This document shows positions 6,197-64,000 of a stretch of 64,000 nt of DNA, one piece after another; position 1 is the first letter of the stretch; each line of letters starts with the position of its first letter. A model generated the notes under the pieces. It was given only the letters and a program-made list of their open reading frames with translations. It was not told the origin of the DNA and did not search any database. The position numbers and the translations under genes were made by a program. This stretch comes from an uncultured Oscillospiraceae bacterium (GTDB lineage Bacteria > Bacillota > Clostridia > Oscillospirales > Ruminococcaceae). Where the stretch lies: positions 1 to 64,000 of the forward strand of contig CASFKY010000068.1 of assembly GCA_949295465.1 (NCBI GenBank), written 5' to 3'.

Positions 6197-7201
6197 ATGA
6201 CCGTCGTCAACAAAAACCCGGAGTATTTTCTGACCATTGCCAGTGAGCGCAGCGTTTCCAAGGCGGCCGAAAAGCTGTATGTTTCCCAGTCCTATCTCAG
6301 CCAGCACATCGCCAAGCTGGAGCAGCAGTTTTCGGTGAAGCTCTTCAACCGCAACAAAAACCCCATCGAGATCACCGAGGCCGGCAAGATCTATGCCAGC
6401 TATCTGGAAAGCTGCAACCAGCTGTACCAAAAGCTGATCGCCGATTTCGACAGCCTGAACCAGAACCGGGAGCAGACCCTCCACATGGGCTTTTCCAACT
6501 GGCGGGCCAGCACCCTGCTGCCGGACATCCTGCCCACCTTTGTGGAGCAGTATCCCAACGTGAAGGTGGTGCTCCATGAGCACCCCATCAGCGAGATGTA
6601 CGGGCTCATCAACAGCAATCAGGTGGATTTTGTCATCATGAACACCACCCTGAACACCCCGGACAATGTGACCACCGAGACCATCATCTATGAGAAGATC
6701 CTGCTGGTGGGCCACCGGGACAACCCTATGACCCGGCGTCTTTTGGAAGAGCAGGCCGCCGGCCGCCCGCTGGATCTGCATCTTTTGGAAAACGAGCGGT
6801 TCATCCTGCTGGGGCCCGAGCTCACCCTGGCCAAGCGGGTGAACAACTATCTGGACAAAAATCAGGTGGTGCTGCGCCGCCAGATCCTCACCACCAACAC
6901 CTCCACCAGCCTGAACCTCACCGCCGAAAATATGGGATTTTCTTTCTTGAACGAGACCGGCCTGAGCCGGGTGCCCAAGCGGGAGGAACTGGTGTTCTTT
7001 GACTTGCAGAGCAGCGACCTGCTCCAGCCTCTGTGCGTGGTGTACAAAAAAAACACCTATCTCTCCCCGGCGGCCCGGGCCTTCATCAACATCACCATCG
7101 AGCACTACAACCGGGTGCAGCAGGCCACCGCGGCCCGGCACGGGCTGCCCACGGCGGCGCCGGTTGTGGCGCCTGGGGAAGAGAAGATGCCAAAATTATA
7201 A
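6197..7201 (+). CDS. LysR-type transcriptional regulator (paralog 1)
   Basis: A 334-residue LysR-family activator. The winged helix-turn-helix occupies residues 1-65 (NPEYFLTIASE, SVSKAAEKLYVSQSYLSQHI, ITEAGKIY) and the substrate-binding effector domain follows from about residue 90. The start at 6197 gives the standard LysR N terminus. It closely resembles the frameshifted regulator at 60876-61822: both share NPEYFLTI, SKAAEKLY, LSQHI and KNPI at matching places. The downstream FAH-SDR operon starts 147 bp after it in the same direction, and a dyad centred at -65 of that operon's promoter overlaps this gene's stop codon, so it probably controls that operon. The inducer is unknown. Confidence 0.9.
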   Translation: MTVVNKNPEYFLTIASERSVSKAAEKLYVSQSYLSQHIAKLEQQFSVKLFNRNKNPIEITEAGKIYASYLESCNQLYQKLIADFDSLNQNREQTLHMGFSNWRASTLLPDILPTFVEQYPNVKVVLHEHPISEMYGLINSNQVDFVIMNTTLNTPDNVTTETIIYEKILLVGHRDNPMTRRLLEEQAAGRPLDLHLLENERFILLGPELTLAKRVNNYLDKNQVVLRRQILTTNTSTSLNLTAENMGFSFLNETGLSRVPKREELVFFDLQSSDLLQPLCVVYKKNTYLSPAARAFINITIEHYNRVQQATAARHGLPTAAPVVAPGEEKMPKL

Positions 7202-7213
7202 CTAAATACTTAT
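7198..7213. promoter_or_regulatory. Putative LysR recognition dyad, FAH-SDR operon
   Basis: ATAACTAAATACTTAT is an imperfect dyad (ATAA...TTAT arms) matching 14 of 16 bases of the site at 63769-63784. Its centre lies about 65 bp before the start expected from the promoter at 7236-7264, the standard place for a LysR recognition site. It overlaps the regulator's stop codon. Confidence 0.55.
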
Positions 7214-7235: not shown

Positions 7236-7264
7236 TTGACACTTTCTAAACAAGGTGGTATGAT
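7236..7264 (+). promoter_or_regulatory. Promoter of the FAH-SDR operon
   Basis: A perfect TTGACA (7236-7241), 17-bp spacer and TATGAT (7259-7264). Initiation near 7271 would give a leader of about 77 nt. Confidence 0.8.
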
Positions 7265-7347
7265 GGGCCCAGAATCAGAAAGCGAGGGACTTTTCTGGTT
7301 TGATCGGTTTGAAAGTATAAGTTTTTATCGATGAAAGGAATGCAGCT

Positions 7348-8277
7348 ATGAGACTTGCCACTTTGAAAGTCGGCGGTGCAGAGACCGCCGCGGTCATTAC
7401 TTCCGGGGGCGCTGTTCTGGTCAGCACCATCAACGAGGCGAAGGGCACCGATTATGCCACCGATATGATGTCTCTGATCAAGAAGGGGCAGATCCCCCAG
7501 ATGAACGATTGGTATCGGGCCGGCGGCAAGGCTGAGCTGGAGAATATGAAGACCATTCCCGCCGCGGAGATGGTGTACGGGCCCCTGTACCGCAACCCCG
7601 CCCGCATTTTCGGCATCGGCCTGAACTATGCAGACCACGCCAGCGACATCGGCTCGGCCGCTCCCAAGGGTTTCCCCGGCAGCTTCTTCAAGCAGGCCGA
7701 CACCCTGATCGGCCCCGGTGACGCCATCCACCTGCCCCGCCTCAAGGAGGCCCAGAAGACCACTGCAGAGGCCGAGCTGGGCATCATCCTGGGCCAGGAT
7801 TGCCGGGACGTGCCCGAGGAGGACTGGGAGAAGGTGGTGGTAGGCTACACCACCATCCTGGATATGACCGAGGAGTCCATCCTGAAAGGCAACGACTATG
7901 TGGCCGGCAACCCCCGGTACCTCACCATTGTCAAGAACTTCCCCACCTTCTTCAGCTTCGGGCCTCAGCTGGTCACCCCCGACGAGATGCCCAAGGACCT
8001 GATGCAGGTGGAGGTGCAGAGCGTGCACAACGGCCAGGTACATGCCCGCAACACCATCAGCAACATGACCCACAAGCCCTCCCGCCTGATCAGCCTGCAC
8101 AGCAGCATCCAGGGCTGGATCGCCGGTGATGTGCTGTCCACCGGCACCCCCCGGGCCTTTGAGATCCGGGAAGGGGATGTCGCCGAGTGCCGCATTTGCG
8201 GGCCCGACGGCTTTGAGATGGCCCCGCTGGTCAACCCGGTGGTGGACCTGAAAAAGCACCCTGAGATCCGTTACTGA
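7348..8277 (+). CDS. Fumarylacetoacetate hydrolase family protein
   Basis: The 309-residue protein has an N-terminal cap domain and a FAH catalytic domain from about residue 80. Family signatures are RIFGIGLNYADHA (substrate entry), AEAELGIILGQD (metal-binding Glu residues), and GDVLSTGTP near residue 255. Members split C-C bonds of diketo acids such as acylpyruvates or 2,4-diketo-3-deoxy sugar acids, or decarboxylate or isomerise related compounds, using Mg2+ or Mn2+. The usual NDVTARD segment is replaced by LDMTEESIL, so it belongs to a divergent subgroup. It is followed by an SDR gene and sits behind a LysR gene; a role in hydroxy- or sugar-acid breakdown is inferred. Confidence 0.85.
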   Translation: MRLATLKVGGAETAAVITSGGAVLVSTINEAKGTDYATDMMSLIKKGQIPQMNDWYRAGGKAELENMKTIPAAEMVYGPLYRNPARIFGIGLNYADHASDIGSAAPKGFPGSFFKQADTLIGPGDAIHLPRLKEAQKTTAEAELGIILGQDCRDVPEEDWEKVVVGYTTILDMTEESILKGNDYVAGNPRYLTIVKNFPTFFSFGPQLVTPDEMPKDLMQVEVQSVHNGQVHARNTISNMTHKPSRLISLHSSIQGWIAGDVLSTGTPRAFEIREGDVAECRICGPDGFEMAPLVNPVVDLKKHPEIRY

Positions 8278-8352: not shown

Positions 8353-9147
8353 ATGGATTTAGGTCTGAAAGACAAAGTTGTGATCTGCATGTCCTCTGCC
8401 GCCGGCATCGGCAAGGGCATCGCCAAGGAGATGGCCCGGGAGGGCGCCAAGGTGGTCATCTGCACCGCCGAGGCTTTCAAGGGCGATTTGGAGAACGCCC
8501 AGGCCGAGATCGAGAAAGAGACCGGCAACCGTCCCTACACCTTTATCTATGACGTAAAAGATCCCGACAGCATCACCAAGATGATCAACGAGGTGGCCAA
8601 GCAACTGGGCGGCCTGTACGCCCTGGTGAACCACTGCCCCGGCCCCAAGGCCGCCTCTTTTGACAACCTCACCGAGGAAGACTGGGCCGACGGCTATGAG
8701 AAGTGCCTGCACAGCTATGTGATCGCCATCCGGGCCGCCCTGCCCTACATGAAGGCTGCCGGCGAGGGCCGCATCCTCAACAGCACCTCCTCCTCCATCA
8801 AGCAGGCGCTGGACAACCTGATCCTGTCCAACACCTTCCGCATGGGCGTGGTGGGCATGAGCAAGACCCTGGCCCGCGAGGTGGGCCAGTACGGCATCCT
8901 GGTGAACACCATGGGCCCCGGCCGCATCTACACCGAGCGCATCAAGTACCTGAACAAGATCCGGGGCGAAAAGCTGGGCCTCACCGAGGAGGAGTACACC
9001 ACCCGCGACTGCGCCTCCTTCCCCCAGAAGAGGTATCAGACTGTGGAGGAGTACGGCCGCATGGCCACCTTCCTGTGCAGCCCGGCCAACAGCGCGGTGT
9101 CCGGTCAGTATCTGCTGGTGGACGGCGCCATGACCACTGCCTATTGA
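8353..9147 (+). CDS. Atypical SDR family oxidoreductase
   Basis: A 264-residue Rossmann-fold protein of the short-chain dehydrogenase superfamily. The glycine motif reads SSAAGIGKGI near residue 15, and the C terminus has the SGQYLLVDGAM end typical of FabG-like proteins. The catalytic tetrad is altered: the YxxxK position reads SNTFR, so Tyr is Ser and Lys is Arg, while LNSTSSS keeps the serine region. Either it uses another mechanism or it is a family with a different active site. GGAGGAAAGAAA precedes the start. It is cotranscribed with the FAH gene 75 bp upstream. A strong hairpin and T-run follow. Confidence 0.85.
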   Translation: MDLGLKDKVVICMSSAAGIGKGIAKEMAREGAKVVICTAEAFKGDLENAQAEIEKETGNRPYTFIYDVKDPDSITKMINEVAKQLGGLYALVNHCPGPKAASFDNLTEEDWADGYEKCLHSYVIAIRAALPYMKAAGEGRILNSTSSSIKQALDNLILSNTFRMGVVGMSKTLAREVGQYGILVNTMGPGRIYTERIKYLNKIRGEKLGLTEEEYTTRDCASFPQKRYQTVEEYGRMATFLCSPANSAVSGQYLLVDGAMTTAY

Positions 9148-52303: not shown

Positions 52304-53412
52304 GCGGGCCGGCGGGCCTGGCGGCGGGGCGGCTGACCGCAGGCTGGCGGGTGCCGCTGCTTTTTCTGGCGGCGGGATGCCTGGCGGTGAGCGCCTTCCG
52401 GCTGGCCCGCAAAAACCGCCCCGTGATGGAATGGCTGGCCGGGCATATCTCCATGCCCTTCAAGCGGGCGGCCAGCGCCCTAGTGGACCCTCTGCCCTTC
52501 AGCGGGGCCGAGGCGGTCTGCCTGGTGCTGGGTTTGGGGGCGCTGACTTTTCTGGTGCGGGGAATCTGGCGGCAGGCCCGCGGCGGAGGCGGGCTGGCGG
52601 CCTGCCTGCTGGCGCTGGGGGCGCTGGCGGTGTGGATCTACGCGGGGGTGTGCCTGCTCTGGGGAGTGCACTACTACACCGAGAGCTTTGAGCAAAAGGC
52701 CGGCATGGGTGCCGGCGGCGTCACCCTGGACCAGCTGGAGCGGGCCGCCCTCTGGTTCCGGGACAAGGTGAACGAGACGGCCCCCCTGGTGGAGCGGACA
52801 GAGGAGGGCAACTTCGGCTATACCTGGCAGGAAATTTTTGCGGATTCGCCGGGGCTGTACGATGGGGTGCTGGAGGAATACCCCTTTTTGGCGGGGCCGG
52901 AGCGCCGGCCCAAGCCGGCCCTCTTTTCCAAGCTGATGAGCGCCTCCAACTTCACCGGCTATCTCTTCCCCTTTTTGGGGGAATCCACCCTGAATGTGGA
53001 CTGCCCGGCGGTGTTCATCCCGGTGACGGTGGCCCATGAGTTTTCCCACCAGCGGGGGGTGGCCCAGGAGGAGCAGGCCAATTTTGTGGGCATTGAGGCC
53101 TGCATCGCCTCCGGCAAGCCGGCCTACATCTACTCCGGCTATCTGTTTGGCTACCTGCATCTCACCAACGCCCTGTGGGAGGCCGACCCCCAGCGATGGG
53201 CCGGGGTGGAAGAGGGGCTATGCCAAGAGGCCAAACTGGATATGGCCCTCAACAACGCCTACTGGGCCCAGTACCAGAAAAAGGTGGTGGCCAACACCAT
53301 GCAGGGAGTTTATGAGAACTTCCTCTACAGCTACGACCAGGATCTGGGCATGCGCAGCTATGGGGCCTGTGTGGATCTATTGGCGGAAAAATACGGGACA
53401 GAGACATCCTGA
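52300..53412 (+). CDS. DUF3810 membrane protein with HExxH motif
   Basis: A 370-residue DUF3810 protein with two to three N-terminal helices (residues ~20-35, 70-85, 100-120) and a large domain beyond. It contains TVAHEFSHQRGVAQEEQANF near residue 247: HEFSH is an HExxH zinc-peptidase signature and a downstream Glu follows in EEQANF. Proteolysis has not been shown for this family. The start is GTG at 52300, overlapping the niaR stop as GTGA, so translation is coupled to niaR. A strong terminator follows. Confidence 0.82.
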   Translation: MSGPAGLAAGRLTAGWRVPLLFLAAGCLAVSAFRLARKNRPVMEWLAGHISMPFKRAASALVDPLPFSGAEAVCLVLGLGALTFLVRGIWRQARGGGGLAACLLALGALAVWIYAGVCLLWGVHYYTESFEQKAGMGAGGVTLDQLERAALWFRDKVNETAPLVERTEEGNFGYTWQEIFADSPGLYDGVLEEYPFLAGPERRPKPALFSKLMSASNFTGYLFPFLGESTLNVDCPAVFIPVTVAHEFSHQRGVAQEEQANFVGIEACIASGKPAYIYSGYLFGYLHLTNALWEADPQRWAGVEEGLCQEAKLDMALNNAYWAQYQKKVVANTMQGVYENFLYSYDQDLGMRSYGACVDLLAEKYGTETS

Positions 53413-53415
53413 ACA

Positions 53416-53453
53416 AAAAAGCAGCAGGCTGAGCCATCAGCCTGCTGCTTTTT
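53416..53453. terminator. Bidirectional terminator
   Basis: AAAAAGCAGCAGGCTGA and complement form a 16-17 bp stem between convergent DUF3810 and DUF6282 genes. Confidence 0.88.
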
Positions 53454-53467
53454 CAGAGAGGAGGAGG

Positions 53468-54328
53468 TTATTCAACCAGATAGGAGGGATTTTGCACGAT
53501 CATTTGACGCATTTCTTCTTCGGTAACGCCGGCCTCCACCAGGCGGCGCACATATTCCTCAAACATGGCGGCAGGTTCCGGGTTGACGGCCTGGCCCAGG
53601 TCGGTGGAAAGAACCATATGCTGCGCGCCGATCTCCCGGATCTGGGCGACCAGGTCGGGGATTTCCAGGTCGCCGCTCATGATGTTGGCGATGTTGTGTT
53701 CCAGAAAAGCCCCGCAGCGCACATACTCTTTCTGCTGCTCCAGACTGGCCCGGGTGGCCGGCCATTCCACATGGGTGGCGATCATCTTTTTCAGTCCCTT
53801 TTCATGGGCCCGGCGCAGCAGCGCCAGCGACTCTTCGGGGGCCAGGTGGCCGGTGCACAGCACCATGTCGTATTGCAGGATCAGGTCCAGAATCTCGTCG
53901 ATGGGTTGGGCCAGGGCGCCGTTTTCATATACCCGGATTCCCCGCACCTCGCCGGAACTTTTGGAGCTGGCGCCGAAGGGGATGGGCGCGCCGCTGGCGG
54001 CCAGATAATCCCACATGTTCTGGGCGTCCATGGTGGGCATGAACACCAGTTTGGTGCCCAGCATGCCGGCCTGACGGACGGCATAAGGGTTGAGCCCGCC
54101 CATGGAGTTGTTCAGCACCACCGCGCCCACCGCGTGAAACCCGGGGAAAGCCTGGCGGACATGATAGGCCCGGCCCTCGGTGTTGAAGTAGTGGGCTTTG
54201 ATCACAAAGCCTTTCATTCCCGCCTGTATGTAAGAGCGGGCCAGCTCCAGGTCGTCCTGTTTGCGGGGCACCACATCGGGGCTGGGATGTACATGCAGGT
54301 CATACGCGCCTTTTAACAGATTTTCCAT
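53468..54328 (-). CDS. DUF6282 metal-dependent hydrolase-like protein
   Basis: A 286-residue TIM-barrel amidohydrolase-like protein of the DUF6282 type. The HxH metal pair is in YDLHVHPSPDVVPRK near residue 11, further His residues are in FVIKAHYF near 46, CTGHLAPEESL near 162 and MIATHVEWPA near 185, and the last-strand Asp is in VLSTDLGQA near residue 245. It thus has the ligand set of a metal-dependent hydrolase, but no substrate is known. It is preceded by the GntP-type permease 25 bp away on the same strand, so it may act on whatever that carrier brings in. Confidence 0.75.
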   Translation of the reverse strand: MENLLKGAYDLHVHPSPDVVPRKQDDLELARSYIQAGMKGFVIKAHYFNTEGRAYHVRQAFPGFHAVGAVVLNNSMGGLNPYAVRQAGMLGTKLVFMPTMDAQNMWDYLAASGAPIPFGASSKSSGEVRGIRVYENGALAQPIDEILDLILQYDMVLCTGHLAPEESLALLRRAHEKGLKKMIATHVEWPATRASLEQQKEYVRCGAFLEHNIANIMSGDLEIPDLVAQIREIGAQHMVLSTDLGQAVNPEPAAMFEEYVRRLVEAGVTEEEMRQMIVQNPSYLVE

Positions 54329-54353
54329 GATACAATACCTCCTGTGGCGGCCT

Positions 54354-55646
54354 TCAGCCCAGAATGGCGTGCCAGATCAGCAGGCCGATCAGGCAGATGA
54401 TGGGAATAATGGCCTGGGTGACAAAGATGTGGGAGAAAGAGTCCTTGTGGGTCTGGTGGCACAGCCCCAGCAGGGTGATCTGACCGCCGGTGTGGGGCAG
54501 AGTGTCCAGGGTGGAGGCGGCGATGGTGGCCACCCGGTGGGCGGCCTGCAGGTTGACGCCCATGTCTATGTAGGTCTGGGCGAAGGTGGACATGGCCACG
54601 CCCATGCCGCCGGAAGAAGAGGCGGAAGCCGCGGCGCAGGTGGCGGTGGTGACGGCCACAAAGACCAGGCCCGGCATATTGATGGAACCGATCCAGTTGA
54701 CCAGGTCGGTGAACAGGACGGTGGATTTCATCACGCCGGCAAAGCCCACCACCAGAGAAACGTTCAGGATCACCGTGCAGGTGTTGCCGGCGCCCTTATT
54801 GAAGGTGTCCAGCCAGACTTTGGGGGAACCGCCGTAGGGGAACAGCAGCACAAAAGCGGAGAGAACGCCGGCCAGCAGAGACCACTCCACCGCCAGGCCC
54901 ACCCCGTTGTACAGCACCAGGATCAGAAGCATGGGGATGAAGGCCAGCAGCACCGGCGGGAACTTTTCGTTGGGCTGCTCGTTGAGCTCCTTGGCCACCA
55001 CTTCGTCCATCTCAAAGCCCTGACCCATACGGCTGTAGCGGCGGGCCATATATTCCAGATAGAAGAAGTTCAGGCCGTACATCAGCACGCCGCCAAACAG
55101 GATACCGGCCAGCAGGTCCGCGGTGGCGGGGGTGCCCAGAGATTTGGAGGCCAGCACATTGGTGATGGCAGGGGCGCCCGGCAGGGAGTTGGCGAAGGTC
55201 CAGCATCCGGCGCCGATGGCGGCGGGGATCAGCTTGCGGGTGATGTTGGATTCCTTGCAGAGCTGAAGCGCGATGGGGTAGGCCGCAAAGTACACCACAA
55301 AACCCAGCACGCCGCCGTAGCAAAGCACCCCGGCGATGGTCATGATCAGGGGCAGCGCAAATTTTCCGTGGGTCAGCCGGCTCATCCAGGTGGCAATGGA
55401 GGCGGCGGCGTGGGTCTTTTCATAAATCGCGCCGAAAATCGCCCCCAGGAAAAACACGAAGAAGTTGCTCTTGATAAAGTCTACAACCGAGTCCATGTAG
55501 GGGCCCAGCATGGTGTCCAGCACCGGCAGCTGGGTCGCAATGCAGAGCAAAAGAGAGACGAAGGGCCCCAGCAAAAGCGGGCTCCACCGCTTGTAAGCCA
55601 AAAACGCAAATAAGAGGATAAACGCGGGGATCAGCAGCAGTTTCAT
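54354..55646 (-). CDS. GntP-family permease
   Basis: A 430-residue inner-membrane carrier with about 12 helices of the GntP/GNTP family (gluconate and other sugar-acid or hydroxy-acid/H+ symporters). The two half-repeats carry family segments such as FFVFFLGAIFGAIYEKTHAA near residue 75, LPGAPAITNVLAS near 170, and the Ser/Gly-rich TTATCAAASASSSGGMGV near residue 348, followed by LDTLPHTGGQITLL. The ATG at 55646 follows AAGGAGTGAATCAC. With the DUF6282 gene it forms a two-gene unit. It has no regulator of its own nearby; the IlvD/Edd gene is 430 bp upstream. Confidence 0.85.
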   Translation of the reverse strand: MKLLLIPAFILLFAFLAYKRWSPLLLGPFVSLLLCIATQLPVLDTMLGPYMDSVVDFIKSNFFVFFLGAIFGAIYEKTHAAASIATWMSRLTHGKFALPLIMTIAGVLCYGGVLGFVVYFAAYPIALQLCKESNITRKLIPAAIGAGCWTFANSLPGAPAITNVLASKSLGTPATADLLAGILFGGVLMYGLNFFYLEYMARRYSRMGQGFEMDEVVAKELNEQPNEKFPPVLLAFIPMLLILVLYNGVGLAVEWSLLAGVLSAFVLLFPYGGSPKVWLDTFNKGAGNTCTVILNVSLVVGFAGVMKSTVLFTDLVNWIGSINMPGLVFVAVTTATCAAASASSSGGMGVAMSTFAQTYIDMGVNLQAAHRVATIAASTLDTLPHTGGQITLLGLCHQTHKDSFSHIFVTQAIIPIICLIGLLIWHAILG

Positions 55647-55740
55647 GTGATTCACTCCTTTTTTACAGACCCAATGTTTCTTCTTTGCCCTGCCTGGCAG
55701 GAAGATGCCAAAAGCCCGGAAGATCCCGGCCGTTCCGATC

Positions 55741-55792
55741 CAAAACAAAAGAGCCGATAACGCACCCCAAAAAGGGCTGCGTTATCGGCTCT
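55741..55792 (-). terminator. Terminator overlapping the KTR gene end
   Basis: A perfect 15-bp stem (55750-55764 with 55778-55792) followed on the minus strand by TTTTGTTTTG. The stop codon of the KTR gene (55782-55784) lies inside the stem. Confidence 0.85.
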
Positions 55793-55970
55793 GCATCTCA
55801 GTGTCTGCCTCTTGAACGATCGAAATATTCAGTTGCTTTACATGGATCAGCATCTCACGCTTGCATTTGGGGCAAAACAGCGGAAAATTGATCATCACCG
55901 TGTCCGGCCGGATCATGATCCGCGTTTTGCTTTGGCAGACAGGGCACAACAACCAGTGTTTGTGCAGCAT
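55782..55970 (-). CDS. Cysteine-rich KTR-domain small protein
   Basis: A 62-residue zinc-ribbon-like protein. It matches the Cys_rich_KTR family: LLCPVCQSKTRIMIRPDTV near residue 8 with the KTR triad after the first CxxC, then FPLFCPKCKREMLI with the second CxxC near residue 35. The two CxxC pairs should hold one zinc. The family is common on conjugative elements of Firmicutes, although no transfer genes are here. It stands alone; its final codons form part of the terminator stem. Role unknown. Confidence 0.8.
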   Translation of the reverse strand: MLHKHWLLCPVCQSKTRIMIRPDTVMINFPLFCPKCKREMLIHVKQLNISIVQEADTEMQSR

Positions 55971-56079
55971 ATCATCACCTTTCTACAAAGCAAACGATAA
56001 AGGACAACCCCTCCTTCCTCAAGGAATATTTTTTCCGTTCAAAGCCTGAAAATGTATCGGTGAATAAATCAGAATTGCA

Positions 56080-57768
56080 TTACTGCTCCCCACGCACCTC
56101 GCTGTTATGATACAGCCAGGTACAGCCTTTGTCCACCCCTTCCACCATGGCACGGTAGGCGCCCAGCACTCCCTTGGCCGGGTGATGGGGCGGCTTTACC
56201 TGGGCCAGACGGCGGCGGATCTCCTCGTCGCTCACCTCCAGGTGGATGGTGCGGGCATTGATGTCGATTTCGATCATGTCCCCGTCCTGAACTGCGGCGA
56301 TGGGGCCGCCGTCCAGCGCCTCGGGGGAGACATGGCCGATGCAGGGGCCGCGGGTGGCGCCGGAATACCGGCCGTCGGTGACCATGGCGCAGCTGGTGTG
56401 CAGGCCCATGCCCACCAGCATGGCCGCCGGGATGGACATCTCCCGCATGCCGGGCCCGCCCTTGGGCCCCTCATAGCGGATGACCAGCACGCTGCCGGGC
56501 TGCACGCCCCGGTCGGCCATGAACTTGCGCAGGTCGTCCTCCGAATCAAAGCAGACCGCCGGGCCCCGATGGTGGAACATCTCGGGCACAACGCCGCTCT
56601 TTTTTACAATGCAGCCGCCGGGGGCCAGGTTGCCGTACAGAACCGCAAAGCAGCCGTCCGGGTAGAGGGGGTCTTCCAGCGAGTGGATGACCTCCGGATC
56701 CACCCGGCGGGAGAAATGGTCCAGAAATTCTCCCAGGGTGCCGCCCATGGCCAGCCGGGCGCTGGTGTCCAGATAGGGGCGGATGGCTTTCAGGGTGGCT
56801 CCCACGCCGCCGGCCTTGTAGTAGTCGTAGACGCTGTAGCGGGAGGAGGGCTTGAATTTGGCGATACAGGGCACATGCCGCTGGATCTCGTCAAAATCGC
56901 CAATATCCAGCTTGACCCCCATCACCCGGGCCAGGGCGCAGATGTGCAGCTGGGCGTTGGTGGAGCCGCCGGTGGCCGCCACATGGCGCAGACCGTTTTT
57001 CAGGCTGGCCTCGGTGACAATGTGGTGGAAGCAGACCCCCTCCCTGGTGAGCGCCACAATCCGCTCGCCCACATCCCGGGCCTGCTTGTATTTGGCCGAA
57101 GAGCAGAACAGCATGGTGGTGCTGTCGATGGGGCACAGGCCGATGGCTTCGGCAAATACGCCCATGGTGTTGGCAGTGCCGTACATGCTGCAGGTGCCGC
57201 AGGAAAAGCAGATGTTCTCTTTATAGCGGGTGAAGGTCTCCTCGCTGATCTTGTCGATGTTGCGGGCCCCGATGGACTCTTTCAGGTCCGGGGTCACAAA
57301 GGTGCCGTCCTCGGCCTCGTAGGGCAGCATGCTGCCCGCCGTGAGGAAGAGACAGGGCTTGTCCAGCGCGGCCGCGGCCATCAGCATGCCGGGCACGATC
57401 TTGTCACAGCTGCACAGGAACACCATGCCGTCAAAGGAGTGGGCGTTGGCCATGGCCTCGATGCTGCCGGCGATCAGGTCCCGCTGAGGCAGGATAGAGT
57501 GCATGCCCAGGCCCTGGGCCATGCCGTCACAGGGGGCGGGCACGCTGAACTCGGCGGGGGTGCCGCCGGCCGCCCAGATGCCCTCTTTCACATACTGCAC
57601 CAATTCCTTGAAGACCCGGTGCCCCGGGTTCACGTCGGTGTAGGAATTGGCGATGCCGATCACCGGCTTGTGCAGGTCCCCGGTGCGGTATCCGCAGGAG
57701 TTCATGAGCCCCACATAGTAGGCCTCCTGGGGATCATCCGGGTTGCGGTTGCCTTTCCACTGTGTCAT
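56080..57768 (-). CDS. IlvD/Edd family dehydratase
   Basis: A 562-residue iron-sulphur dehydratase of the dihydroxy-acid/phosphogluconate dehydratase family. The cluster ligands and family signatures are present: [11 protein letters not shown] near residue 120, [17 protein letters not shown] near residue 190, and [20 protein letters not shown] near residue 480. Members remove water from dihydroxy or sugar acids to form 2-keto-3-deoxy acids. No ilv neighbours exist, and accessory carriers surround it, so an aldonate or uronate-type substrate is as likely as branched-chain synthesis. AAGGAGCTGTTTGT precedes the ATG at 57768. Its promoter (57844-57872) has a LysR-like dyad at -65. Confidence 0.88.
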
Positions 57769-57843: not shown

Positions 57844-57872
57844 AGTGTAGCGGAAAATAGGCACAAAGTAAA
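57844..57872 (-). promoter_or_regulatory. Promoter of the IlvD/Edd gene
   Basis: On the minus strand TTTACT (57872-57867), a 17-bp spacer and TACACT (57849-57844), start near 57837. Confidence 0.65.
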
Positions 57873-57894: not shown

Positions 57895-57910
57895 ACAAGT
57901 AATAACTTGT
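57895..57910. promoter_or_regulatory. Putative LysR recognition dyad, IlvD/Edd gene
   Basis: ACAAGTAATAACTTGT is a perfect 6-bp inverted repeat with a 4-bp centre, about 65 bp upstream of the start inferred from the promoter at 57844-57872. It resembles the dyads at 7198 and 63769. Confidence 0.55.
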
Positions 57911-60780: not shown

Positions 60781-60822
60781 AAAACAACAAAACCCGTGTA
60801 CAAGTTATTATACACGGGTTTT
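60781..60822 (-). terminator. Terminator after the LysR remnant
   Basis: AAAACCCGTGTA and its complement TACACGGGTTTT (12 bp) with a 10-nt loop and, on the minus strand, TTTTGTTGTTTT. Confidence 0.75.
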
Positions 60823-60875: not shown

Positions 60876-61822
60876 TCACAGGGGATCGGCAGGCAGGGCG
60901 ATGGGGATGGTGTGCAGATAGTACTGACGCACCAACTCCATGGCGTCCTGCACCGCAGGGGAGAGATAGCTGTTCATTTTATATACGATGGACAGCGGGA
61001 TCATCAGATCCTGCGCGTGCAGGTCGAACATGACCAGTTCCGGGCGGGTGTACAGGTCGGTCAGCCCGGTCTCCACCAGAAAGCAGAAGCCCAGCCCCTT
61101 GGCCACAAGGTTCAGAACCGTGGCGTTGTTGGTGGTGTAGAGACGCTCCAGAAAGGTGAGATGTTTCCGCTCCAGAAAATTGTTCACATGCCTGCCCACC
61201 GCCAGGTTCCGATTGAGGGAGATGAACCTCTTTTCCTGAAGCTCGGCCAGGTCGATCTCCTCCCCATGGGCCTGCTGCTGGGCAAAGAGGGCGGCGACCG
61301 GGTCGGCCCGGTGCATCACCAGCAGGATGCGCTCGTAGGCAATGACCTCCTGGACCAGATCGATGCCGCCGGAAATTTCGGGCGAGGTGTTCATTACCGC
61401 GAAATCCACCGTGTCGTTGCTGACCAGGGTAAACAGCTCGTTGACCGGGAACTCGGAGAGGGTGATCCGGGTCTGGGGATACCGCTGCATGAAATCCGGG
61501 AGGATCTCGGGCAGCAGGATGGGCCCCGCCAGGTGCCCGCGCCCATGTTCACCATCTGCATCCGCCTGCTGTTGAGCTCGCTTTGCAGCTTGCGGAACAG
61601 GAAATTGCTGCTCTCCAGATACCGCTGGTAGATGCGGCCGGACTCGGTGACCTGGATGGGATTTTTGGATCGGTCCAGCAGCTTGATGTCCAGCGCCTGT
61701 TCCAGCTTGGAGATGTGCTGACTCAAGGAGGATTGGGAGATGTACAGCTTTTCGGCGGCCTTGGAGATGCTCCTCTCCTGGACAATGGTCAGAAAATATT
61801 CAGGGTTACGGTTGACAAACAT
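60876..61822 (-). pseudogene. Frameshifted LysR-type regulator (paralog 2)
   Basis: This frame should encode a 315-residue LysR regulator but is broken by a one-base deletion. The first part (from MFVNRNPEYFLTIVQERS at 61822, GAAGGAG upstream) holds the complete DNA-binding domain through about residue 100; the effector domain reads on in the next frame. At 61521-61527 the coding strand reads GGGGCCC; one more base there would restore WRGPILLPEIL, which aligns with WRASTLLPDIL of the paralog at 6197-7201. The gap of 947 bases is one short of 316 codons. It may be a true mutation or a sequencing error in a GC run; truncated it would leave a DNA-binding fragment. Confidence 0.85.
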
Positions 61823-62174: not shown

Positions 62175-63539
62175 TCACCCGTTCATAATGGGAAGTATGC
62201 CCAGGGCGATCAATCCGCCGATGATGACCACCGGGACTACATAGTGGAAGACCAGCGGCTTGAATGTGACCTGTATGTTGTTCACACCCGCCAGGCCGCA
62301 GGACACGAAAATGGGGGAGGAGCTGGGGGGCGAAGCGCCCTCGGTGGACATCCAGATCAGGAATGCCGCCACCGCAGCGATGGGGCTGATCCCCACATTG
62401 GTCAGCACCGCATAGGCCACGGGCCCCATGGCGATGGTGGTGGCCACGCCGCTCAGCGGGCCGGCCACCAGGGCCACCATGATGCCCACAATAAAGACCA
62501 GAACCGCCTTGGGCAGGGTGAGAGATTGCAGCAGTGCGTTCAGGTCTTCGCCGAACCCGACCGCAGACAGCACGTTGCTGCCCGCAATGGCAAACAGGAA
62601 GATGCCGCCCACATTGGCAAAGCTCTTTTCGGTGCCCTTCAAAAGGTCGTACCAGCCGCCCAGCGAGTGGGGCAGGCGCTTCCAGCCCTCGATGATGCAG
62701 ATCACGCTCATCAGGATGGGCACCCAGATCACGATGCTGATGGAATCCATCCCTTCGGTGCCGAAAGCGGAGGCCTCCAGCACGCCGGACAGGGGACCGA
62801 TGCTGATGAGCAGGGGGATGACGATGCTCAAAAACATGAGGAGCGAGGGCCAGTTCTTCTTCAGGGACTGGCCGATGGGAAGGATGTTCCCGTGGTCCAG
62901 GGCCGGCACATGGTATTTGCTCACATAGAGCCGCACAATGATCAGCCGGTACAGAACGCACCACAGGCCGGCGGTGAGCATGGCCAGATAAAAGTTGTCG
63001 ATGGCCACCGCCGCCGCCACCTGGGGCAGGCCCAGCATGATGAACATGGCGGAGGAAGCGGGGAAGGATTGACCCGACCCGGCGTTCCCGGCGGTGATGG
63101 TGGCGGCGGCCTCCTTGGGCCAGCCGGATTCGATCATCCAGGGAATGGTGATCGTGCCCACCGTGGCGGCATTGGCAACCGAGTTGCCCGATACCAGACC
63201 GAACAGGCCGCTGGCCACCACGGCCACATAGGCGGAGCCTCCCCGGATCCGGCCGATCAGCGAGTTCAGGATCTCAATCAGCTCCCCGATGATGCCGGTC
63301 TTGGCCATGATGGCCGACATAAAGACAAACAGCATGGTGGCAAGAAAGATCTCTTCGGTGGCCGCGCCATACAGCGCGTCCAGGATGGTGGTGAAGTAGC
63401 TGCCGACTCCCCCAAACAGAGCCACCACCAAAAATCCCAGCAGCATGGCCTCAGTGATGGAGCGTTTGATCAGGGTGCTCTATAGGATGACAACTGCCAG
63501 ATAGACGGCAAATGCCCATACGCCCATTCCTATTTCCAA
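62175..63539 (-). pseudogene. TRAP-like large permease with in-frame amber codon
   Basis: The coding frame begins at a TTG (63539) eight bases after AAGGAGG, and starts EIGMGVWAFAVYLAVVIL, a normal first helix. The 20th codon is TAG (63480-63482), after which the same frame continues STLIKRSITEAMLLG and runs 423 more residues from an internal ATG at 63446, which lacks a good ribosome site. The protein resembles DctM/TRAP large permeases: about 11 helices, with SGNSVANAATVGTITIPWM near residue 95 and AGNAGSGQSFPASSAMF. So the gene is either broken, read through, or started at 63446. A sequencing error is possible. The substrate is probably an organic acid. Confidence 0.8.
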
Positions 63540-63732: not shown

Positions 63733-63784
63733 TAAGCAAAACTTAATGTACACAATAGGCCACTTGTCATAAGTAAAAACTTAT
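63733..63784. promoter_or_regulatory. Putative LysR recognition sites, TRAP-like locus
   Basis: ATAAGTAAAAACTTAT (63769-63784) matches the dyad at 7198-7213 in 14 of 16 positions. A shorter copy, TAAGCAAAACTTA (63733-63745), overlaps the proposed promoter, whose TATAAT (minus strand) is at 63734-63729. The 63540-63982 gap is AT-rich and holds no other recognised gene. Confidence 0.5.
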
Positions 63785-63982
63785 CTTGTTATGACTCTTA
63801 AACTATTGGAAAAAAGGGGACAAATCCGATAAGATGAAAATTAATCAGGGCTAAAAACAGGCGGCCCAAGGGGCGGCCTGTCGGAGCAGTTTTCGGGGGC
63901 TGCAAAACGCAGCCGAGGCCTGAAACAGAACCCGGATACACCACAAACCCAAGTTTTACTGTGTTGAGAGAGGAGAAGAGAT

Positions 63983-64000
63983 ATGAAAGCTGCATTTGTT
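63983..64000 (+). CDS. Start of a new gene (partial)
   Basis: GAGAGGAGAAGAGAT is followed by ATG AAA GCT GCA TTT GTT (MKAAFV) at the window edge. MKAAFV is the usual opening of zinc-type alcohol dehydrogenase or quinone oxidoreductase proteins, but six codons are too few to assign. Confidence 0.45.

Follow-up and report, generated by a model that had tools for sequence, protein, structure and literature searches.

The window, by which we mean the whole 64,000-nucleotide stretch of DNA analysed, encoded near its start the regulator LysR1 (6197–7201, + strand). LysR1 had both an HTH_1 (Pfam, 3.8e-19) and a LysR_substrate domain (Pfam, 3.4e-31), which places it among the LysR-type regulators. 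It was followed by genes for a FAH-family hydrolase (7348–8277, + strand; Pfam FAA_hydrolase, 5e-37) and an SDR-family protein without a YxxxK motif (8353–9147, + strand; Pfam adh_short_C2, 2.8e-39). Further on, all on the minus strand, were an IlvD/Edd-family dehydratase (56080–57768; Pfam ILVD_EDD_N, 1.8e-100), a membrane protein (54354–55649) and, downstream of the ilvD-like gene, a DUF6282 protein (53468–54328; Pfam DUF6282, 1.9e-64), on which the literature search found nothing. The membrane protein had been called a GntP carrier in an earlier note on this DNA. This name was not retained, as no family match was found: neither Pfam nor NCBIfam gave a match at 0.001, and each gave one weak, unrelated match at E ≤ 1. 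Toward the end of the window were LysR2 (60876–61822, − strand), a TRAP DctM-like permease (62175–63539, − strand; start chosen by eye) and the start of a 276-aa protein from a family without a name (63983–64000, + strand, continuing to contig position 64813; L020:5983–6813), here called the 63983 protein.

LysR2 was a paralog of LysR1, as had been noted, but the two were not near-identical, sharing 60% identity over residues 3–108 and 40% over residues 100–304. LysR2 was split into two overlapping pieces in different frames, each with a Pfam match, the frame changing near 61,508–61,535. Of the two LysR genes said to lie beside dyads, LysR1 did so, at site 1, while LysR2 was ~1.9 kb away from site 3 and had a broken frame. 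The TRAP carrier was recognized by a DctM match (Pfam, 1.7e-55) on the part after an in-frame stop, which lay within 63480–63539, near the presumed start. The interruptions of LysR2 and of the TRAP gene may be genuine or may come from the assembly. Past LysR2, at 60800–60812, the minus strand reads TATAATAACTTGT, resembling half of site 2.

Three 16-bp dyads were present exactly where they had been reported: ATAACTAAATACTTAT at 7198–7213 (site 1), overlapping the stop codon of LysR1, ACAAGTAATAACTTGT at 57895–57910 (site 2) and ATAAGTAAAAACTTAT at 63769–63784 (site 3), none with an assigned strand. The paired positions were 6/8 for site 1, 7/8 for site 2 and 6/8 for site 3. For the chance test the model was built from site 3 alone (ATAAGT-N4-ACTTAT, ≤2 mismatches) and applied within the 64-kb window. 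It gave three matches, exactly sites 1–3, against 0.14 expected (sd 0.35), and none of 100 window shuffles reached three. A relaxed pattern, AYAAGT-N4-ACTTRT, was derived from the sites themselves, so that its per-region shuffle P values at ≤1 mismatch are circular (0.0017 for site 1, 0.0003 for site 2 and 0.0047 for site 3).

The earlier note had proposed a motif search of the whole genome. The assembly to which the window belongs has 2,149,281 bases in 86 contigs, the window being the first 64,000 bases of contig C68 (142,891 bases). It is 84% complete, so sites may be missing from it. With ≤1 mismatch, the relaxed pattern was found there in three places, exactly sites 1–3, and the reversed-pattern control likewise gave three matches. 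With ≤2 mismatches the relaxed pattern gave 36 places, versus 83 for the reversed control. An over-representation of the motif in the genome was thus rejected. Among 61 genomes, the relaxed pattern had 0 to 46 matches per genome at ≤1 mismatch, with at least one in 58. Because the reversed control also gives three matches, the evidence lies in the location of the matches and not in their number: the unusual feature is that all three good genome matches stand in front of the genes discussed here. The equality of the genome-wide counts would agree with the third dyad, or all three, being chance palindromes of AT-rich promoter DNA. We consider this very improbable, given the three matches in the window against 0.14 expected, together with the conservation, the synteny and the constant promoter offset, all computed directly and presented below.

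The recognition site of LysR-type regulators standardly lies near −65 of the target promoter. Both promoters noted earlier were confirmed. At site 1, TTGACA-17-TATGAT (7236–7264, + strand; 11/12 consensus bases) precedes the FAH and SDR genes. At site 2, TTTACT-17-TACACT (57844–57872, − strand) precedes the ilvD-like gene, with 8/12 consensus bases at the offset of site 1. The predicted start was assumed to lie 7 nt past the −10 hexamer, and all values of −65.5 given here depend on it; with this start, sites 1 and 2 were both centred at −65.5, in agreement with the placement near −65 noted before. At site 3, a weak promoter-like element, TTGGAA-18-TAAGAT (63806–63835, + strand; 8/12), was found toward the 63983 gene at the same offset as at sites 1 and 2.

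Dyad centre and first −10 base were 53.5 bp apart at all six promoters computed: those of sites 1 and 2 in both this genome and Fournierella massiliensis, that of site 3 toward the 63983 gene, and that of the corresponding operon in a genome of another family (G398). Given the assumed start, all six dyad centres were at −65.5. In G398 the dyad, ATAGTAAAAATGCTAT, which lay 53.5 bp from the −10 of TTGACC-17-TATGAT, was picked post hoc from its position. With the offset fixed by site 1, the chance of an 8/12 score was ~0.016 for site 2 and ~0.012 for site 3 per strand, in first-order simulated sequence. Within 25 bp, other offsets reached equal scores: −10 at site 2, and −2 and +10 at site 3. A simple consensus scan of the site 3 region reported no promoter. 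A TRAP-directed promoter at site 3 at the common offset was rejected, scoring 6/12 against 8/12 toward the 63983 gene, which site 3 fits better.

In F. massiliensis we found orthologs of LysR1 (94% identity), FAH (93%), SDR (95%) and IlvD (96%), with LysR1 beside the same genes. Site 1 was present there as ATAACTGAATACTTAT, with 15/16 bases kept, and the TTGACA and TATGAT of the FAH-SDR promoter were unchanged, 17 bp apart. Site 2 was present as ACAAGAATAAACTTGT, its 5-bp arms (ACAAG/CTTGT) unchanged and three central bases different; the ilvD-like promoter read TTTACT-17-TAAACT. Two further matches with one mismatch, on contig C11 of F. massiliensis, overlapped long open frames in a mechanically made list and were not tied to the regulon. 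In the FAH leader of the window, a conserved block at 7317–7332 (− strand) contained the half-site-like ATCGATAAAAACTTAT, three mismatches away from the tested pattern and with one base changed in F. massiliensis; this block might be an auxiliary site.

Two segments of the window were absent from the syntenic places in F. massiliensis. The first, ~53,400–56,090, carries the membrane protein and DUF6282. The second, 59,366–64,941, in whose place there was ~1.3 kb of other DNA, carries a MATE-like protein (recognized by eye), LysR2, the TRAP gene, site 3 and the 63983 gene. Site 3 was found in no second genome among those read.

Close relatives of the hydrolase were rare. FAH gave hits at E ≤ 1e-90 in three of the 394 genomes of the order, the genome of the window included, and at E ≤ 1e-80 in one of the 391 genomes of the class, which was this genome itself. 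LysR1 was detected at E ≤ 1e-60 in 2/61 genomes. The scan of named genomes with FAH returned three loci, those of F. massiliensis and Yanshouia hominis and a third one (L030), the last of which (29% FAH, no LysR1 hit) was left out of the synteny count. No plasmid record was similar to the LysR1-FAH-SDR stretch.

The genes that are dispersed in the window were found together in relatives. In G398 (locus L031), the homologs of LysR1 (56%), FAH (73%), SDR (75%) and IlvD (82%) formed one cluster, in which LysR and FAH were separated by two dehydrogenases, one Ldh2-type and one for 2-hydroxyacids, and which ended with FAH, SDR and IlvD. In Yanshouia hominis (L029), a LysR1 homolog (46%), two dehydrogenases, FAH and a 63983-type gene stood together. 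FAH was followed by the 63983-type gene both there (70%) and in another genome, G363 (L032, 94%), where the pair lay beside a different LysR (28%). A LysR1 homolog thus adjoined these genes in four of the five genomes with FAH at ≥70% (the window, F. massiliensis, G398 and Yanshouia, not G363). FAH-SDR, IlvD and the 63983 gene, one for each dyad, are thus pairwise neighbours in other genomes. On the opposite side of site 3 lies the TRAP gene and on that of site 2 an ftsW-like gene; neither was seen as such a neighbour. The exact motif was absent at ≤2 mismatches from the loci of three relatives (19–21 kb), where the LysR proteins had, by eye, recognition helices unlike that of LysR1, and upstream of the Yanshouia cluster there were several imperfect dyads, none of which could be assigned as an operator.

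In the genome of the window, contig C43 carried a homolog (70%) of the relatives' Ldh2-type dehydrogenase, beside a LacI-like gene (identified by eye), and this contig had no motif match at ≤2 mismatches. At the start of contig C4 (1–12000; L062) the same genome carried a LysR (31% to LysR1) with homologs of the Ldh2-type dehydrogenase, a DctM-like protein, DUF6282 and the 2-hydroxyacid dehydrogenase, perhaps a paralogous acid pathway.

The G398 cluster, the conservation in F. massiliensis and the identical geometry support the dispersed regulon that the earlier note had proposed to join FAH-SDR with the IlvD/Edd dehydratase. For sites 1 and 2 we regard this predicted regulon as well supported, and the membership of site 3 as likely.

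The 63983 protein had no Pfam match, no good NCBIfam match and no sequence relative in the PDB. As a family profile (E ≤ 1e-8) it was detected in 96 of the 348 sampled genomes of the phylum; as a single protein at E ≤ 1e-50, in 2/394 genomes of the order. By eye, the 19 loci of the wider family (L038–L056) had varying neighbours and no pathway genes in common. The gene was 87% identical in DNA to the G363 copy, almost exactly from start to end; the G363 FAH, by contrast, was 70% identical in protein. Neither F. massiliensis nor G398 had a match to the 63983 gene at E ≤ 1e-5. In its simplest reading, this points to a laterally gained gene.

Site 3 might also have another history. Sites 1 and 2 would then form the LysR1 regulon, and site 3 would formerly have belonged to LysR2, remaining as a relic beside the decaying TRAP and LysR2 genes of an island. 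The interrupted frames of both genes are in line with this, as is the absence of 59366–64941 from the syntenic place in F. massiliensis. Moreover, the recognition helices of LysR1 (SYLSQHIAKLEQ) and LysR2 (SSLSQHISKLEQ), placed by eye, were nearly identical and could read one operator. This history is possible but rather doubtful in our view: the intact 63983 gene has a promoter-like element (8/12) with the spacing seen at the other two sites, homologs of this gene neighbour FAH in other genomes, and the offset toward TRAP scores only 6/12. We thus prefer the reading in which site 3 serves the 63983 gene within the LysR1 regulon.

Regarding the identity of the regulator, no T-N11-A was found inside the 16 bp of any of the three dyads; off-centre ones appeared once 4-bp flanks were added. 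The LysR label therefore rests on neighbourhood and position, and LysR1 would be the predicted rather than the observed binder. The even length of the dyads and the missing T-N11-A would also suit another regulator, for example of the GntR or MarR kind, with LysR1 a mere neighbour. We find this unlikely, because LysR1 homologs adjoin the genes in four of five genomes and the dyads share the −65.5 geometry. In addition, in G398 both the recognition helix and the post hoc operator are different. LysR1 remains our preferred candidate.

Regarding the pathway, the dehydratase, SDR and FAH types on which the earlier note had built a sugar-acid route are all present, as recognized by Pfam; the route itself is unproven, with an SDR that lacks YxxxK and with FAH and IlvD below the NCBIfam cut-offs. 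FAH scored 76 bits against the L-2,4-diketo-3-deoxyrhamnonate hydrolase model, whose cut-off is 500, and this hydrolase was fifth among its solved relatives. IlvD was below the cut-offs of both the dihydroxy-acid dehydratase and the L-arabinonate dehydratase models. In FAH, His97 was kept, with Asp100 three residues on; equating these with the His83/Glu86 pair described in PMC6336799 is our own reading.

YxxxK occurred nowhere in the SDR, which therefore does not show the Ser-Tyr-Lys triad. Among the five best solved relatives shown, none had YxxxK in the aligned stretch, and 1o5i had a Tyr nearby and no Lys. Some SDR-like proteins without YxxxK make conjugate reductions. Searches of titles and abstracts gave nothing relevant on SDRs without the catalytic tyrosine. 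The literature searches also found nothing on sugar acids in Fournierella, and nothing joining diketo-3-deoxy, hydrolase and IlvD. The chemistry is thus less well supported than the regulation, and calling the pathway a sugar-acid one is a guess.

Together, these results suggest one small regulon with the three dyads as its predicted operators and LysR1 as the protein that most likely binds them, an explanation to which we give a probability of roughly 0.7. If clustering came first, as we assume, genes that are clustered in a relative (LysR, dehydrogenases, FAH, SDR and IlvD) would have become dispersed in Fournierella, every fragment keeping this operator at a constant spacing to its promoter. 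From the arrangement we infer that LysR1 binds the dyads as its recognition sites and, sensing an acid of the pathway as effector, would activate FAH-SDR and the IlvD-type dehydratase jointly, with their enzyme reactions forming the route. The 63983 gene would probably be activated by LysR1 too. Site 3 most likely recruits this putatively laterally acquired gene, a neighbour of FAH elsewhere, into the same regulon.

A more far-reaching version, which we put forward tentatively and hold to be improbable as a whole, is that an operon which fell apart would have kept its regulation via a repeated, base-exact operator and captured a horizontal gene. It would serve a novel pathway by which anaerobic gut Clostridia break down an acid, with an SDR without YxxxK and an unnamed protein, and not the known Route III.

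The predicted regulon offers a functional connection, open to test, across 50 kb of DNA and to a protein family that has no name in Pfam. The clustered and dispersed forms, with the operator spacing kept, would be a small case of co-regulation surviving dispersal. Solving the route would identify an acid that little-studied gut bacteria use.

Among known systems, the nearest in chemistry is the non-phosphorylative Route III. It serves the breakdown of pentoses, L-fucose and L-rhamnose, for example in Herbaspirillum huttiense and Xanthomonas campestris, and its enzymes are a dehydratase acting on the acid, a 4-dehydrogenase of the SDR family and a FAH-type hydrolase (PMC6336799, PMC11199699). 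The Route III genes described there are clustered, and the dehydratase, SDR and FAH genes likewise form one cluster in G398, being dispersed in the window. In contrast, the L-KDFDH of Route III has Ser-Tyr-Lys, where the SDR found here is without YxxxK, and the clusters of the relatives add two 2-hydroxyacid dehydrogenases and the unnamed protein.

LysR-type regulators, as described in PMC8407307 and PMC11739112, have their recognition site upstream of the target promoter. The adjacent LysR gene, the imperfect dyad and the constant upstream position are like those systems, whereas the dyad here is 16 bp long, of even length, and has no T-N11-A inside. Comparative-genomic regulon reconstructions (for example PMC5343134 and PMC4052901) use the same sort of reasoning, combining conserved operators with synteny; here, however, just two genomes show the operator itself, and a third has a looser one picked post hoc.
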